Shown here: in pieces, positions 9,957 to 21,292 of the stretch
Numbering within the stretch: position 1 is the first letter of the stretch
Layout: every line of letters begins with the position of its first letter
Assembly (NCBI GenBank): GCA_024220505.1
Contig: JAKZZE010000022.1
Span: 372,001-436,000 of the forward strand
Reading direction: 5' to 3'
From: Rhizopus arrhizus
Taxonomy: Eukaryota > Mucoromycota > Mucoromycetes > Mucorales > Rhizopodaceae
DNA: 64,000 bases
Program-made: the position numbers and the translations under genes
Notes under the pieces: generated by a model
Seen by the model: the letters and a program-made list of their open reading frames with translations, nothing else
What the model was told of the DNA's origin: nothing
Databases searched by the model: none

Positions 9957-9974
9957 AAAGAAAAGGTTTTTTTT
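9957..9974 (+). repeat. target-site duplication, left copy
   Basis: AAAGAAAAGGTTTTTTTT directly precedes the LINE and is repeated after its poly(A) tail. The first three A residues could belong to the tail, so the true length is 15-18 bp. Confidence 0.8.
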
Positions 9975-9977
9975 TTC

Positions 9978-11429
9978 ATGGTTCTTTCGTATAAAAATCA
10001 TTACCCAAGTTCAAACTCAGCTAACCCTGGGAAGAACGCACCCAACAATTCAAACTATGCTTGGACCAAGGTCGTTACGAAGAATATCTCATCTTTGAAA
10101 CACCCTCCTCCTGGCAACGATTACCGAAATCGAAAACACCGTTCTCCTGTCGCTTCTCGTCGCAGCAGCGTTGCATCTGCGGATTCGTTATTTAGCAATG
10201 TGTCTATTGCCCAACATCCCTCAACCATCCGTCCATTTATAAAAGGAATGGAAAAGCACAGTATTTTAGTGGATGTTACTGATGTGAAAGATGCCGAATT
10301 GTTAAAAAAGGCATTCCAAGAATTTAATAAAGTTGAAAGTGAGAATGAGGACGGCGATGAAGACTACCTTGGTCGCTCGTTAATTAAGCGTACCTATCTG
10401 AATCGCACATTCATTGAAACGCAATGGACCCTAGGTAGCCGAGGCTATACCACTATTTTGAATGATGGTATCACTTTGTCCGATGGCACCTTTGTGAAAG
10501 GGTATAAAAGTCTTCCTTCTGATGCCAAAATCGTCCGTTTGAGACTTGAAAGATTACCTCTCCGCCCTGTTAAGAAGTTGACAAAAGAGATGGAAGCCAG
10601 GCTTTCTTGCTTTGGCGAAGTGCTTGACCTTGGCTTGATTAAATCAGGAGGTTGTAACGTTGGTATTGGCTATGCCACGCTGAATATCGACCCTGTTGAG
10701 AGCCCACTTGAACACCTGGGAAAACTTCAGAGAGTGATTGACTGGGATGACGGCGAAGGCGACATTCGTCATGTATATCTGCAATGGGATGAGATGCCTC
10801 CCTTCTGCCGTATTTGCCAGAAAGAGGATCATTGTAGAGCCGACTGCCCTGACCTGAAAAAGTACTTGGAGTGCTACAACTGTAACAAGAAGGGGCACAT
10901 GATGCGTAACTGTCCCCGCAACAACCATATAAATCCGGTCGTTGCTCCCAATAAGAAAAAGAATATTGCAGCACCCACTAAGGCCACGCGTAAGGGGGAG
11001 GTTGCTCGCCAAATCATTACTCGGCCAACCAGTAGCGGTGACCAACAGCAAACAGCTGCACCGGTTAATGGTCTCCAGACTGGTTTACGCTCAAACAATG
11101 CTGACACACACCATCCTACGAATACGGAAGATGCCGACATGTCAGAAAACGACATAATTAATACGGAAAAGGAGGATGATCCTATGAACGGCACGACAGG
11201 TTCTGATCATCCTAACAGAGAGTCTAACAAGATTAGAACAATTGAAAGCGACGATGAAGATCTCACAACCCTTTGCCGCGATCTAGATAACCGACCGACC
11301 AAACACCCTAGAGTGGATTTGAATAAGGATGTTACAAACTCAAAGACCGATCAGTGTGATAGTATAGAATCACAAGCTTCCAGTAACTATGAGGATACCG
11401 GAGGCAACAGTTCAACCAACCGACAATAA
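9978..11429 (+). CDS. LINE ORF1 RNA-binding protein
   Basis: A 483-residue frame. The N-terminal 80 residues are basic and Ser/Asn-rich. Residues about 85-270 contain an RRM-like region (RLRLERLPLRPVKK, then LSCFGEVLDLGLI). Residues about 277-308 hold two CCHC zinc knuckles with C-x2-C-x4-H-x4-C spacing (CRICQKEDHCRADC and CYNCNKKGHMMRNC). The C-terminal 170 residues are acidic and Ser/Asn/Thr-rich. ORF1 proteins coat the element RNA and act as nucleic-acid chaperones. The ATG lies only three bases inside the element, so the leader is almost absent. The stop is separated from the ORF2 ATG by five bases. Confidence 0.9.
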   Translation: MVLSYKNHYPSSNSANPGKNAPNNSNYAWTKVVTKNISSLKHPPPGNDYRNRKHRSPVASRRSSVASADSLFSNVSIAQHPSTIRPFIKGMEKHSILVDVTDVKDAELLKKAFQEFNKVESENEDGDEDYLGRSLIKRTYLNRTFIETQWTLGSRGYTTILNDGITLSDGTFVKGYKSLPSDAKIVRLRLERLPLRPVKKLTKEMEARLSCFGEVLDLGLIKSGGCNVGIGYATLNIDPVESPLEHLGKLQRVIDWDDGEGDIRHVYLQWDEMPPFCRICQKEDHCRADCPDLKKYLECYNCNKKGHMMRNCPRNNHINPVVAPNKKKNIAAPTKATRKGEVARQIITRPTSSGDQQQTAAPVNGLQTGLRSNNADTHHPTNTEDADMSENDIINTEKEDDPMNGTTGSDHPNRESNKIRTIESDDEDLTTLCRDLDNRPTKHPRVDLNKDVTNSKTDQCDSIESQASSNYEDTGGNSSTNRQ

Positions 11430-11461
11430 TTTTAATGTTATTACACAATAACATTAAAATT
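11428..11461 (+). promoter_or_regulatory. perfect 15-bp hairpin over ORF1 stop and ORF2 start
   Basis: AATTTTAATGTTATT (11428-11442), a four-base loop ACAC, and its exact complement AATAACATTAAAATT (11447-11461). The left arm begins inside the ORF1 stop codon (11427-11429) and contains the ORF2 ATG (11435-11437). The right arm encodes the first residues of ORF2. Such a structure may control reinitiation or ORF2 dosage. The function is inferred; the palindrome itself is seen directly. Confidence 0.75.
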
Positions 11462-14400
11462 GCCACACTCAACTGTCGTGGCCTCACCAAAATAAATCAA
11501 GAAAAGAAACAAAAAAAATTCATTCGCTTCCTTCGCAACTCTGGTGTTGATATCTTGGTTCTTCAAGAAACTCATGCCAGCAATATGATCATTCAAGACT
11601 CGTTTAATATGCAGTTCCAAACACATTCAAGTACTTGGACCAAACACTGCGGTATACTCTCCTTAAATAAACATTATTCAGTTTCTACTAATTGTGTAGG
11701 AATTGATGGTAGATTCATTTTATCGAGCATCGTGCCTTCTATTCACTATGCTTCCTATGACAACACTACCAATAACCAACAAACAATCCTTCAGATCTTA
11801 AATATATATGCTCCAGCTGTCCGCCAAGAAAGAAAACTCTTCTATGCACAACTAATGGACACTTCAATAATACGCAACCTATTACGTGATACCATCGGTC
11901 ATTTATTCATTATGGGCGATTTCAATCACACTTACAGCTCTTCCTCCACCATTCTCCCAACTGGTACCACGCGGGAATGGATAGACTGTTTGCAGTTGCA
12001 CTACCACGATTGTTTTGAACATGATAAACTGGCTACCTTTCGTAGGGGTGAACACTTTTCTACCATTGACCATATATTTTGTCGACCCGATACCTCGCTC
12101 AATGTCAAGGAAAAACACCAAGGTTTTCTCAACAGTGATTGGACAGATCACTCAATGTTGGAAATCTCGTTTATGTTCAATATCCCTGATCAAGGACCCG
12201 GCACATGGAAAGCTAACCCTTTCTTAGCCAAAAACATCCACTTCAAACATGCTTTTCAAGATCATCTACAGTATCTCCAATCACAGTTACCTTCACAGGC
12301 CGAGTACCTAGCTGATCGAGAAATCTGGGACTGGATCAAAGTTCAAGCCAAGACGTTTATCCGAACTTTTCAACTGCAACAAAACAATTGGCGGAAAAAG
12401 CAACTGAATAAGCTACAAAAGAAGCGTAATCGAATTTTGAGGACCTACAAGCACTTCAACATTCTGAATACAGTCTTGCCAACTATTGAACAGCAAATTG
12501 GATCTCTTCAAGATCAAATATCCGAGATTGAATGTCTTAAAGCTGGGAAATTCTGGAGAGAGAACAATGAAAAGTCCCCTGGCTTCTTGAAAAGGTTGAT
12601 TAAGACTCGAGAAAGTCAAAGGTATATACCAAACTTAACCGACCCAGTAACGGAGACTATGTGTTCCTCCAAAGAAGAGAAGATGAATATTGTGGAAGCG
12701 TTTTATGGTCAGCTGTACGATCCAGATCCTGTCGATGACTCTGCGATGATCTCCATCTTGACTCACATCCCCGATTCGTGCAAACTTACTGACACTCAAA
12801 AAGCAACCTTGACGGAGCCGATTACGATCGAGGATGTACTCCTTTATAGCAAACGCTCGCCAAAAAAAAGTAGCCCTGGCCCAGACGGCTTGCCCTATGA
12901 AATCTTGAACTTGATCGTGGCATTCGAGCCTTTCCACTCGTTGATCTGTCGCGTCTATAACGATGCCTTAGACCACGGTGTATTTCCAGCTACTTGGGAC
13001 GAATCACTGATGAGCTTACTCCCCAAAAAAGGAGACTTGACTCAAATGAAAAATTACCGTCCGATTTCATTGGTAAATACTGATACAAAGATATTTACTC
13101 GGCTTGTCAACAGCCGGCTTATGCGTGTCTCTCGCAAGATTGTCAATGAGAATCAACTTGGCTTCATACCTGGTCGCTATATTGCAGAAAATGGAATGAT
13201 CACTCAAATCATAATGGAACACGCCGCCTGCCAATCTTCCTCTGACGATAAGAGCCTAGCCTTACTACTAGATCAGGAGAAAGCGTATGATCGGATCAAT
13301 TTACATTACTTGGAGCAAGTCATGCTTACTTGGGGCTTTCCAGCTTCAATTGTGAACAGCATCATCACCATGCTTGCCAACAACCGTATCAAGATCAACG
13401 TTAATGGGTTTACCTCAGCTGATGTTTTTAAACGAAGAGGCTTGAAACAGGGCGACCCCATATCACCCATCCTGTACAATCTTGCTTTGGAGCCATTTTT
13501 AAGGTCAGTCCTACAAGACTCTACCTACTCTGGCTACATTATGGCTTTACAACCTCATCTTGTTACTGGCGGCTCTACTGATGCTTCGGTGAACGTCAAG
13601 ATCCTTTGCTATGCTGATGATACGCTCGTATTCATCAAGAACTTACAGGATCTCTCCAGGTTAAAACATCATATAGAAGTTTATAGTCGATCTTCTAATG
13701 CTCGCATCAATTACAACAAAGTGGAAACCATCTCGCTATCAGGTCGCGACCACTCTAGCTATTGGGGGCGAGATCTAACTGATATGAATATACCTCGAAT
13801 TCATCTACCAACAAATCCAGATCCTATCGTGTATCTTGGTTTCCCATTAATACAGTCCAGCCTCCAACGTCGCACATTCATGTCTCAGTTTACCAACAAG
13901 ATCAAACAGATTGCCTTACTGCACTCAACTCGCTCCTTATCGATACTTGGTCGAGCAACAATTGTCAATTCTCTGCTACTCTCTATGTGCTGGTATCTGT
14001 TCCGGGTAACTCCCATAACTAAATCAGATATCTCCAAAATTCGCTCAGTAGTATCCAAATTTATGAACCAAGGAATCTTCCCGCGGATAAAATGGACCAT
14101 ATTGACACTTCCAAAGCATCTTGGTGGTCTTAACCTGATTGACCCTCACATTCAGCAAGCTGCCTTATACTTTCGATGGATCCAACCACTATTGGTTACC
14201 AGACAACGATCTCGTCCTTCGAAAGTTACAAGATTGTTACGAATACACTTGAAAAACACGTACAACACGCAGCACCATGAAATACCTCTTTTGTTTCAAG
14301 ATGGACGGAAGTCAACTCAACTTCGTTTATTCAACATTTGCAACCTGCTAACCAAGTCAATTGATTTAATTCCAAGGAATTTCAGCACAATGGAGCTCAA

Positions 14401-15325
14401 TCCACACGCATGTTTACTATTGCCCATCCAAGACATTTTCATGCATCCTGAACAACGTTTCAAGTTTCCTTCGATCTGTGGTCAGATGAAAGTACAAGAT
14501 CTATTTCAGTACAATCAGCAAACACACACGATTGCAAGAATCCCACATGCTGATATGGACAACCGATTTAAACGAGCTGCCAACAAAATCTTCCGTGGTG
14601 TCGAAGCCAGCAAGTTGTTCCTCAGTTACTTCTTTGGTAAACATTGCATACCAGATGCATCTCGCCCTCAACAAATAGATACATCTATCGACGAGGATCC
14701 ACCACAGCTCAGCTTTACCCCATTCGTCGACTGCTTGCAATTCACACTTCCTTCCACCAAAAGCTTCACCGATGTGACAACAAAAATATTTCGCAAAACC
14801 TGCAACCAACTCAACACTGCACCAAAATACTTGACAGATATTCTTCCTCAGCGCTGGTTGGCCTTTTGGAGTCTTTATCTTACTGCAACACAACGAAATG
14901 TTATTTATCGGCTTATCAACAAAAAAATACCGCATAAAGATATACTTCACAAATTCTTTCCCGACAAATTCGATACTCCTAATTGTTCATTTTGTGCATC
15001 TACTATCGATTCCTTGCAACACTTTCTCTTCGATTGCCCTGTCAAACAAGTCGTTTGGCAAGGTCTTGTTCGCGAATTCCTATGGCCAACAGTGGACACG
15101 CAAGATATTTTTAAAGCTTTTACCACATTAGACTACTACTCTGTTTCCTACTGTCAATCCTCCGATATCACCGCAGAATCAGTCCTCATCATTGCCCTTG
15201 GCCAAGTTTGGAAATGCCACTGGCAAAGCATTTTCAACCAACAACCGTTCTTGTCAAGCACTGTACTACAGGCTATCCGCAACAATGTCCAACAACACAT
15301 CGCTGAAGAAGGTGACCTCGACTAG
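11435..15325 (+). CDS. LINE ORF2: endonuclease and reverse transcriptase
   Basis: A 1296-residue polyprotein. Residues 1-245 are an apurinic-type endonuclease (TLNCRGL, VLQETHAS, MGDFNHT, STIDHIF, TDHSML) that nicks target DNA. A linker with coiled-coil character follows. The reverse transcriptase spans about 470-800: SPGPDGLPYEI near 480, LLPKKGD, NYRPISLVNTDTKI, QLGFIPGR, the first catalytic Asp in LLLDQEKAYDRI, RRGLKQGDPISP, and YADD at 726-729. A C-terminal knuckle (CSFCASTIDSLQHFLFDC) lies near 1184-1202. All catalytic motifs are present and no stop interrupts the frame. The architecture fits the L1/Tad-like fungal LINEs. Translation probably depends on coupling with ORF1 (5-nt gap). Confidence 0.95.
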   Translation: MLLHNNIKIATLNCRGLTKINQEKKQKKFIRFLRNSGVDILVLQETHASNMIIQDSFNMQFQTHSSTWTKHCGILSLNKHYSVSTNCVGIDGRFILSSIVPSIHYASYDNTTNNQQTILQILNIYAPAVRQERKLFYAQLMDTSIIRNLLRDTIGHLFIMGDFNHTYSSSSTILPTGTTREWIDCLQLHYHDCFEHDKLATFRRGEHFSTIDHIFCRPDTSLNVKEKHQGFLNSDWTDHSMLEISFMFNIPDQGPGTWKANPFLAKNIHFKHAFQDHLQYLQSQLPSQAEYLADREIWDWIKVQAKTFIRTFQLQQNNWRKKQLNKLQKKRNRILRTYKHFNILNTVLPTIEQQIGSLQDQISEIECLKAGKFWRENNEKSPGFLKRLIKTRESQRYIPNLTDPVTETMCSSKEEKMNIVEAFYGQLYDPDPVDDSAMISILTHIPDSCKLTDTQKATLTEPITIEDVLLYSKRSPKKSSPGPDGLPYEILNLIVAFEPFHSLICRVYNDALDHGVFPATWDESLMSLLPKKGDLTQMKNYRPISLVNTDTKIFTRLVNSRLMRVSRKIVNENQLGFIPGRYIAENGMITQIIMEHAACQSSSDDKSLALLLDQEKAYDRINLHYLEQVMLTWGFPASIVNSIITMLANNRIKINVNGFTSADVFKRRGLKQGDPISPILYNLALEPFLRSVLQDSTYSGYIMALQPHLVTGGSTDASVNVKILCYADDTLVFIKNLQDLSRLKHHIEVYSRSSNARINYNKVETISLSGRDHSSYWGRDLTDMNIPRIHLPTNPDPIVYLGFPLIQSSLQRRTFMSQFTNKIKQIALLHSTRSLSILGRATIVNSLLLSMCWYLFRVTPITKSDISKIRSVVSKFMNQGIFPRIKWTILTLPKHLGGLNLIDPHIQQAALYFRWIQPLLVTRQRSRPSKVTRLLRIHLKNTYNTQHHEIPLLFQDGRKSTQLRLFNICNLLTKSIDLIPRNFSTMELNPHACLLLPIQDIFMHPEQRFKFPSICGQMKVQDLFQYNQQTHTIARIPHADMDNRFKRAANKIFRGVEASKLFLSYFFGKHCIPDASRPQQIDTSIDEDPPQLSFTPFVDCLQFTLPSTKSFTDVTTKIFRKTCNQLNTAPKYLTDILPQRWLAFWSLYLTATQRNVIYRLINKKIPHKDILHKFFPDKFDTPNCSFCASTIDSLQHFLFDCPVKQVVWQGLVREFLWPTVDTQDIFKAFTTLDYYSVSYCQSSDITAESVLIIALGQVWKCHWQSIFNQQPFLSSTVLQAIRNNVQQHIAEEGDLD

Positions 15326-15468
15326 TACCCCTCTATCAACCTTATCTTTCTTTTTATTGTACGCATTCTTTTATTATCATTAACTCTTTTAATTTGCGCC
15401 CGCCTCTTACCGAAACCAATCATTTTGGGTAACGCGGAGCAATAAATAAAAACCTTTAAAAAAAAAAA

Positions 15469-15486
15469 AAAGAAAAGGTTTTTTTT
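15469..15486 (+). repeat. target-site duplication, right copy
   Basis: The same 18 bases as at 9957-9974, directly after the poly(A) tail of the LINE. The T run is 8 here and 10 in the left flank. Confidence 0.8.
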
Positions 15487-19797: not shown

Positions 19798-21292
19798 ATG
19801 TTTATAGGATATCTGCTACTAACAATAACGACTTTTTTCTTTTATCGTGCTGTTCAGCAAACCCACATTTTTGATATTGTGCTTAAACGAAATAATGGCT
19901 TGGACGAATGGATATCCAAGCAAATGAGCATTAGTTTTAAAACTATTCTTAAAAATATTCATCCCCCAGGTACCACTCGAGGTTTTCTTGCAGCCTCCCT
20001 CTCTACCTCTCATCCCGATTATTTTTATACTTGGACCAGAGACGCGGCTTTAGTAGTACGAGTTCTTTGCGATTTGCCCGAGACGGAGGATAACCTACTA
20101 AAAGACTATGTTGAATTTCAAGTTGATACCCAAAACACTCCTACTGTTTGCCAATGTTTAGGTGAACCCAAATTCAATCCTGACGGTTCTGCTTTTTCCG
20201 GTCCCTGGGGAAGGCCTCAAAACGATGGTCCAGCAGAAAGAGCCATTACATTCATGAAGATTATCAACCGACTCAAAGGAAAGCATGATGATTTTATAAA
20301 AAAAACTATCATGACAGCTCTTAAAAAAGATCTTGATTATACCGTCCGCGTTTGGGAAGAGCCGTGTTTTGACCTTTGGGAGGAGGTAAATGGCATACAT
20401 TTTTATACTTTAATGGTGATGCGCAGAGCTCTCATGGATGGCTATTACTTTTTTAACAATAAAAAGTATCAATCTACTGCTAATGACATTCAAAAAAGAC
20501 TGGAAACATTCTGGTCGCCAGAGGAGAACTACATCAGGGTTACACAAGATGAGCAATCGGGCGTAAATAAGACTTCTGGTTTAGATGTTTCTGTTTTATT
20601 AGCAGCAAGCACATTTTCTAGTATTGATGAAGGTAAGTTTTTTATCCTCAAGATAATTTGTTAAAGTCAAGATATTGATTATGGTTATTTTGTTTAGGCT
20701 TCTTTACTCCTGCTTCTGATAAGGTTATATATATTTTTTGTTTGGGTATCATAATTATTAACACATGTCTTTATAGATCCTTGCTACGGCAGCAGCCATA
20801 GAACGTGCGTTTTTAAATGTTTATTCAATCAACAAAGACTTGAAAACAGGTTTAGGAACTGCTATTGGTCGTTATCCCGAGGATGTCTATGATGGATACG
20901 AAAAATCCAAGGGGAATCCTTGGTTTTTAGCAACGGCTGCCTATGCTGAACTTTACTACCTAGCCATTGAAGAGTGGAAACAGAAAGGCATTGAAATCAA
21001 CAAAGTAAACAAGCCATTCTTTGAACGCATTGTTCCTTTTGACTATGGTACTTATGCTCCCAACAGCGATCAATGGCAACAAATCATATCCAAAGTGTCT
21101 ACGGAAGCAGACAAATTCTTGGCTACAGTCCAGTTCCATCAACAGACGAATGGATCTATGTCTGAGCAATTCAATCGTAATACAGGTCGTATGCAAGGTG
21201 CTAGAGATTTAACTTGGTCTCATGCTGCGTTTATTTCGGCTGTAAAAGCCAAAGAAGGATTACCCATTACTCCTGTGATCACATCTAAATAA
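19798..21292 (+). CDS. glycoside hydrolase family 15, glucoamylase-like
   Basis: Exons 19798-20632, 20698-20723 (26 nt) and 20777-21292 encode 458 residues. A hydrophobic N-terminus (residues about 2-18) is a signal peptide or anchor. The (alpha/alpha)6 barrel begins with the [12 protein letters not shown] block, followed by [16 protein letters not shown], carrying the catalytic acid, lies near residue 191, and [11 protein letters not shown], carrying the catalytic base, near 414, with DLTWSHAAF after it. The family releases glucose from the ends of starch or glycogen. There is no starch-binding domain, so soluble or intracellular/vacuolar glycogen is a possible substrate. The 26-nt middle exon is supported by phase and by the uninterrupted reading FFTPASDK. 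Confidence 0.93.

Follow-up and report, generated by a model that had tools for sequence, protein, structure and literature searches.

How the second protein of a two-ORF LINE is synthesized is a long-standing open question, and SART1 and mammalian LINE-1 are the studied cases according to the available text of PMC5972666 and PMC2881922. A LINE of Rhizopus arrhizus raises this question at a precise site. In the stretch of DNA analyzed here, which is 64,000 bases long and is called the window below, a first-pass annotation had described a perfect 15-bp hairpin with an ACAC loop at 11428..11461, placed over the ORF1 TAA and the ORF2 ATG, and had proposed that the stem hides the ORF2 AUG and thereby sets ORF2 dosage by termination-reinitiation. 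Is this hairpin a selected structure, and if so, what does it do? The hairpin itself was confirmed, with an extra U-G pair, and the interpretation as a whole was partly supported: a selected structure at the junction is well supported, a role in ORF2 translation is likely, and we infer from the sequences that ORF2 dosage may be controlled through reinitiation.

The element is indeed a two-ORF LINE, as had been proposed. A full-length copy lies on the forward strand at 9977..15471 (end approximate), and its first base, C, is directly 5′ of the ORF1 ATG. ORF1 (9978..11429, forward strand) encodes 483 amino acids with a CCHC zinc knuckle at residues 298–313 (PF00098) and ends with the stop codon TAA at 11427..11429. 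ORF2 (11435..15325, forward strand) encodes 1,296 amino acids with endonuclease (PF03372), reverse transcriptase (PF00078), and zf-RVT (PF13966) domains, all four Pfam matches being above the cut-off. Its ATG is at 11435..11437, so that 5 nt separate stop and start, as first described. By domain criteria, the element is a two-ORF, L1-like LINE of the Grem-LINE1 kind of Mucorales, a kind whose RNA is reported to be elevated in an RNAi-deficient laboratory strain of Mucor lusitanicus. The Grem-LINE1 elements of Mucor are likewise L1-like, with a zinc-finger ORF1 and an ORF2 containing AP endonuclease, reverse transcriptase, and zf-RVT domains (PMC7377519); in the available main text of that paper, “hairpin” and “stem-loop” occur 0 times and no junction structure is described, and the available part of PMC11943222 contains nothing further on the Grem-LINE1 ORFs. 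The ORF2 relatives with a named source came from Rhizopus, Mucor, Parasitella, and Choanephora, and the identity with the named Mucor and Parasitella proteins was 31–43% over the aligned part. Two Rhizopus arrhizus proteins (P0031 and P0032) had the same first residues as the copies L116 and L080.

The 5′ end was placed at 9977 because the sequence common to six copies with unrelated flanks starts there. At the 3′ end, AATAAATAAAAACC ends at 15441 and an A-tail begins at about 15459. A target-site duplication of 15–18 bp was found at 9957..9974, and the identical letters follow the A-tail at 15469..15486, where the first three A may belong to the A-tail. Both an A-tail and a target-site duplication were present in four of the six close copies, i.e., those in which the 3′ end was found; the 3′ ends of the other two were outside the stretches fetched. 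All six close copies start one base 5′ of the ORF1 ATG (9977–9980 in the window) despite their unrelated flanks, which suggests that the leader of the LINE is a single nucleotide. The CATG of copy C23 may be part of the target rather than of the element, and copies C30 and C1 have one extra G between the duplication and the first C. Such a G could be the trace of a copied cap. In the L030 family, the element starts near ACTCTTTCGTG, some 200 nt ahead of the first ATG in the ORF1 frame, and the window LINE has TTCTTTCGT at 9982–9990; the CTTTCGT common to these two 5′ ends could be part of an internal promoter.

At the junction, the 5′ arm of the hairpin (AATTTTAATGTTATT, 11428..11442, forward strand) includes two bases of the stop codon and the entire ORF2 ATG. 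It is followed by the ACAC loop (11443..11446), which is replaced by ATGT or ATCAGC in related copies with most of the stem unchanged, and by the 3′ arm (AATAACATTAAAATT, 11447..11461), which is the exact complement of the 5′ arm and encodes ORF2 residues 5–9 (NNIKI). Beyond the 15 perfect pairs, U11427 and G11462 form a sixteenth, U-G, pair, and a smaller hairpin, GCCAC...GTGGC, lies immediately downstream at 11462..11482 on the same strand. When 134 nt around the junction were folded, the hairpin was returned with z = −3.66, and none of 200 dinucleotide shuffles was as stable. Within the 64,000 bases, no other perfect Watson-Crick hairpin combines arms of 12 or longer with a loop of 3–12; among 12 shuffles of the whole window, arms of at least 15 were found in none and arms of at least 12 in two. 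A scan of the 50.3 Mb genome (41 contigs) for the core pattern TTAATGTTAT-N(3-10)-ATAACATTAA gave 10 occurrences, all 10 of them at LINE copies returned by the DNA search described next, and the reversed control pattern occurred 0 times.

We then compared the copies of this LINE. A DNA search returned six close copies (including that of the window), four matches at 77–78%, and one fragmentary distant match, together with six in which the hairpin matched its opposite strand. Intact copies without the complementarity would have spoken against the original proposal; within this LINE there was none, the stem being identical and perfect in six of six close copies, and it was among the other families, described below, that about half had no strong hairpin. 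In the sister family, the stem was kept around the loop ATCAGC, two of three copies being free of mismatches and the third having one. The degenerate copy L007 had the loop ATGT, one stem mismatch, and a two-sided change from T-A to C-G at pair −4:+23; its ORF1 is broken and its ORF1 stop was set by analogy at −8. Between the window LINE and the sister L023, ORF2 identity was 58.7% over 242 codons, and the end of ORF1 next to the stem had only 3–9 matches per 20 bases (ungapped), while the 12 bases preceding the ATG had 11 matches. Among the codons that specify the same residue in both, all five within codons 2–9, in the stem, were identical, compared with 57 of 131 elsewhere and 14 of 25 in the codons that follow, as far as codon 40. 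The stem has thus drifted less than neighboring sites, although this comparison rests on few codons. Taken with the resampling of codons presented below, it supports the earlier suggestion that the match is kept beyond coding constraint.

A genome with dozens of LINE families, whose junctions occur with and without a hairpin, is a natural experiment on such a structure. An endonuclease search of the organism's own genome gave 155 matches, from which loci were chosen among the matches listed, and three further searches seeded from other clades were added; in all, 140 loci were picked from the match lists, generally one or a few per score group. A junction was accepted if the ORF2 ATG was −5 to 40 nt from the ORF1 stop, in-frame cases being excluded. 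This gave 118 callable junctions, which belong to 43 families at 80% identity; among the 22 loci dropped are L007 and broken copies, as well as families whose ORF2 is open, for example L041, L042, and L116. Of the 118 accepted junctions, 113 had a distance of −1 to 16 from stop to ATG, and the commonest values were −1 (33), 2 (21), 4 (11), 8 (10), 14 (9), 5 (9), and 13 (8). Stop and start were spaced as in AUGA in 33 junctions and as in UAAUG in 21. Relative to ORF1, ORF2 was in one of the two frames left by this calling procedure in 83 junctions and in the other in 35.

The AUG hairpin was better than every control anchor of its locus (8–15 per locus) in 19 of the 43 families, where about 2.7 were expected, and the comparison with the control anchors was significant (Wilcoxon p = 0.0009). 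Hairpins of ≤ −8 kcal/mol were found at 10 of 43 junctions and 13 of 619 control anchors, those of ≤ −6 kcal/mol at 15 and 45, and those of ≤ −4.5 kcal/mol at 22 and 80, respectively; the families, all from one genome, are kin to each other, so these family counts are not independent. In 21 of the 43 families, no AUG hairpin of −4.5 kcal/mol was found, and the weak-hairpin families with an open ORF2 include L045, L069, L081, L096, and the L102 group (through L106). The hairpin is therefore common but not universal. The stems were long in several families: 14 pairs in L065 (TTAATTATGATAGA-GAAA-TCTATCATAATTAA) and in L034, 17 pairs with one mismatch in L044, and 13 pairs in L136. Others were AGTAATAAGT-6 nt-ACTTATTACT in L043, TATGAGAG-4 nt-CTCTCGTA in L088, and CACTCAT-CACA-ATGAGTG in L030, in which the AUG is in the 3′ arm. 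The stem sequences were unrelated between clades. In a rough protein tree (55 columns), the 21 hairpin families other than L093 fell in about nine separate places; nucleotide clustering at 55% gave no usable clades. Among the 22 families with a hairpin of ≤ −4.5 kcal/mol, at least two of the three AUG bases were paired in 15, one was paired in three, and none in four; the AUG was wholly paired in the window LINE, and in one family (L093) the hairpin was upstream of the AUG. In L034 and L044, the endonuclease LNC motif lies 47 and 52 codons, respectively, beyond the AUG, compared with 11 in the window LINE, and in both families the hairpin was located at the AUG and not at the LNC motif. L093 and L109 have little AUG hairpin and a long downstream stem (GCTTC...), in which, by eye, the differences between the two seem to preserve pairing.

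To separate structure from codon choice, synonymous codons were drawn at random while the peptide was left unchanged. Structure at the ≤ 0.05 level was found in the AUG zone in 18 of 43 families (7 at 0.01), in a downstream zone in 16 (10 at 0.01), and in an upstream zone in 13 (3 at 0.01). In three control windows, the counts were 0 of 37, 6 of 41, and 0 of 38; the window with the raised count (6 of 41) adjoins the upstream zone. For the window LINE, 2 of 400 resamplings were as stable in the AUG zone and 8 of 400 in the downstream zone, around the hairpin at 11462..11482; in the upstream zone, the number was 85 of 400, which was not significant. When a sliding z-score was calculated for 41 families from the first 90 loci, in some of which the ATG was loosely placed, it gave three zones centered near −40, +10, and +50, with background elsewhere. 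The strongest structure was at and after the AUG, and the mean fell to background farther than about 60 nt upstream or about 70 nt downstream of it. The upstream zone lies at the end of ORF1, in the 75 nt preceding its stop codon.

Compensatory changes in the stem, which the annotation had named as a check, were found; in the group of this LINE they amount to the one pair in L007, and they are best seen in a clade in which ORF2 begins with MSNKS or MNNRS (23 copies, 18 distinct sequences). In this clade, two hairpins occur in tandem, 91.6% of 450 cells are standard pairs, and five pairs show two-sided changes, in 19 cells. When the structure was slid by 1–3 columns, 26–49% were paired (maximum 49.3%), with at most four two-sided pairs in four cells. 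In a control in which the letters were redealt, 9 of 500 runs reached five two-sided pairs and none of 500 reached the observed number of cells, percentage, or score; further pair types were not above this control (18 vs. 18.4). RNAalifold recovered both hairpins unprompted from a wider alignment of 21 sequences. The second helix contained G-U in 41 of 234 cells; since G-U would be A-C on the opposite strand, this points to the sense RNA as the form that is kept. Two more clades (8 and 11 sequences) fold into a hairpin at or around the AUG plus one downstream, with little support from covariation (one two-sided pair each and covariation terms of 0.2 and 0.08). In L059, L085, and L139, a core pair was broken and ORF2 had stop codons, but L083, L137, and L138 kept the stem despite stop codons in ORF2, so the link between a broken stem and a broken ORF2 is weak.

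What, then, would the structure do? Distant LINEs of the same genome form the fold with different letters, and the fold therefore probably helps to set ORF2 production. On balance, we consider it probable that selection maintains the hairpin as an RNA element of the two-ORF mRNA, most likely for coupled termination-reinitiation. The proposed junction module comprises an upstream structure, the AUG hairpin, and a hairpin about 35–65 nt downstream, with families varying in the parts present, and it would stay with the ORF2 start codon. If the leading edge of a terminating ribosome is taken to be 13 nt beyond the first base of the stop codon, the ribosome that completes ORF1 would sit on at least half, and up to all, of the 5′ arm in 22 of 22 hairpin families, so the stem need not block a ribosome that has just completed ORF1; it could block others. 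A ribosome finishing ORF1 would thus open most of the 5′ arm and free the adjacent AUG, the 3′ arm and the downstream hairpin would then face its front and may keep the small subunit on the AUG, and ribosomes arriving without translation of ORF1 would meet a closed or nearly closed ORF2 start. That the structure affects ORF2 translation, that the two ORFs are coupled, and that the small subunit is held are all what we infer. Leaky scanning to ORF2 is disfavored by the 32 ATGs that occur from the ORF1 start (including that of ORF1 itself) to the ORF2 start. More tentatively, the three parts may form a portable RNA device that has been rebuilt with new sequences several times around the ORF2 AUG, with the ORF1 ribosome melting the hairpin and gaining sole access and the downstream hairpin holding it; the output of ORF2 would then be a fixed fraction of that of ORF1, set by the strength of the stem.

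Selection on structure leaves its purpose unspecified, and a selected RNA element might have a different job, such as binding of the ORF1 or ORF2 protein for packaging and cis preference, or RNA stability; the zinc knuckle of ORF1 could bind RNA. We regard this as unlikely: the hairpin tracks the stop-start site even where the ORF2 leader is long (L034 and L044), the mean structure returns to background on either side of the junction, and, as the stems are unrelated between clades, no common binding sequence was seen among them. It also seems improbable that the stem is only an inhibitor, a lid on the AUG that holds ORF2 at a low level with no coupling involved. The wholly paired AUG of the window LINE and the 15 of 22 families with at least two-thirds of the AUG paired are what such a lid predicts. 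The hiding of the AUG that was originally proposed was only partly supported, because the stem contains the AUG in most families but not in all: it is unpaired in 4 of 22 hairpin families. In addition, with the ribosome edge assumed above, a terminating ribosome would cover at least half of the 5′ arm in all 22, and the second, downstream hairpin is kept too. The placement of the stop, which brings the 5′ arm under the ribosome, and the four families with an unpaired AUG favor coupling over a plain lid.

Chance, composition, or coding constraint (an AT-rich spacer and Asn and Ile codons), or a functionless palindrome produced by template switching, is a very improbable source of the hairpin. 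The stem is AT-rich, L044 and L114 contain repeats such as ATTATTATG against AATAATAAT, and the strong hairpin is missing from about half of the families, all of which would suit this explanation. Against it, chance and composition were rejected by the whole-window and dinucleotide shuffles, the sliding z-scores, the control anchors, and the codon-preserving resampling, and the conservation relative to the diverged sister L023 also argues against them; a functionless palindrome is disfavored by the two-sided changes and by the unrelated stems in other clades. Frameshift and read-through signals typically include a stable hairpin close to a stop codon, but stimulation of either to give an ORF1-ORF2 fusion is scarcely credible here, since the stem starts within the stop codon rather than some nucleotides past a slip site and, in place of the one fixed frame relation of a programmed frameshift, both out-of-frame relations occur (83 and 35 of 118), which stop-start coupling fits and frameshifting does not; read-through is less well tested by these counts, from which in-frame cases were excluded.

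Kojima et al. reportedly described, in 2005, stop-start translational coupling at UAAUG in the silkworm element SART1. According to the available text of PMC5972666, this coupling needs a downstream structure, and in the portion of PMC2881922 at hand, studies of SART1 and human L1 suggest that translation of ORF2 depends on that of ORF1. On these partial descriptions, SART1 is by analogy the nearest known case: both it and the window LINE are two-ORF non-LTR retrotransposons with a stop beside a start and RNA structure downstream. Structure downstream of the start was found in the window LINE (8 of 400 resamplings) and in 16 of 43 families, and it is kept in one clade. The overlapping UAAUG was not found in the window LINE, which has UAA-5 nt-AUG, but an overlap occurs in some other families here. 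A second difference from SART1, as far as it is described there, is that the main hairpin here holds the AUG and that unrelated stems do so in many families of one genome. Mammalian LINE-1 is similar in that ORF2 is translated from the same RNA after ORF1, reinitiation having been proposed, and differs in its spacer of 63 nt (available text of PMC5972666 and PMC2881922), compared with an overlap or ≤ 16 nt in 113 of the 118 accepted junctions here. The TURBS of caliciviruses and influenza B and the upstream pseudoknot of victoriviruses are also coupled stop-restart systems with nearby structure, as outlined in the same part of PMC5972666, and a structured zone upstream is present in the LINE families as well. 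Unlike in TURBS, structure here peaks, by z-score, at the AUG and beyond it, and UGGGA within about 100 nt upstream of the junction was not enriched (2 of 43 families vs. 3.2 expected), which disfavors reinitiation of the TURBS type. A literature search of limited depth found no report of a hairpin at a LINE ORF junction, and a search for Rhizopus LINEs with ORF2 and start codon found none. The recurrence with new sequences is unusual for stop-start coupling in LINEs. If the hairpin couples ORF2 to ORF1, it would be a simple eukaryotic stop-start device that is portable into reporters.

Several minor observations were also made. The viral contigs scanned gave no relative. Another LINE, L116 (contig C15), lies about 0.9 kb before the start of the window and has no strong fold at its ORF2 ATG, and Pfam matches identified host genes at 19798–49271 of the window, i.e., glycosyl hydrolase 15, amidase, Kelch-BTB, HSP90, CotH, and a bHLH protein. 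Four copies with equal scores, L059 (C5:1361106), C8:876452, C12:451906, and C18:550245, have one TGA each in ORF2. In L059, in which its position was read, this TGA is codon 9, within the 3′ arm of the hairpin, and a subfamily may have spread carrying it.
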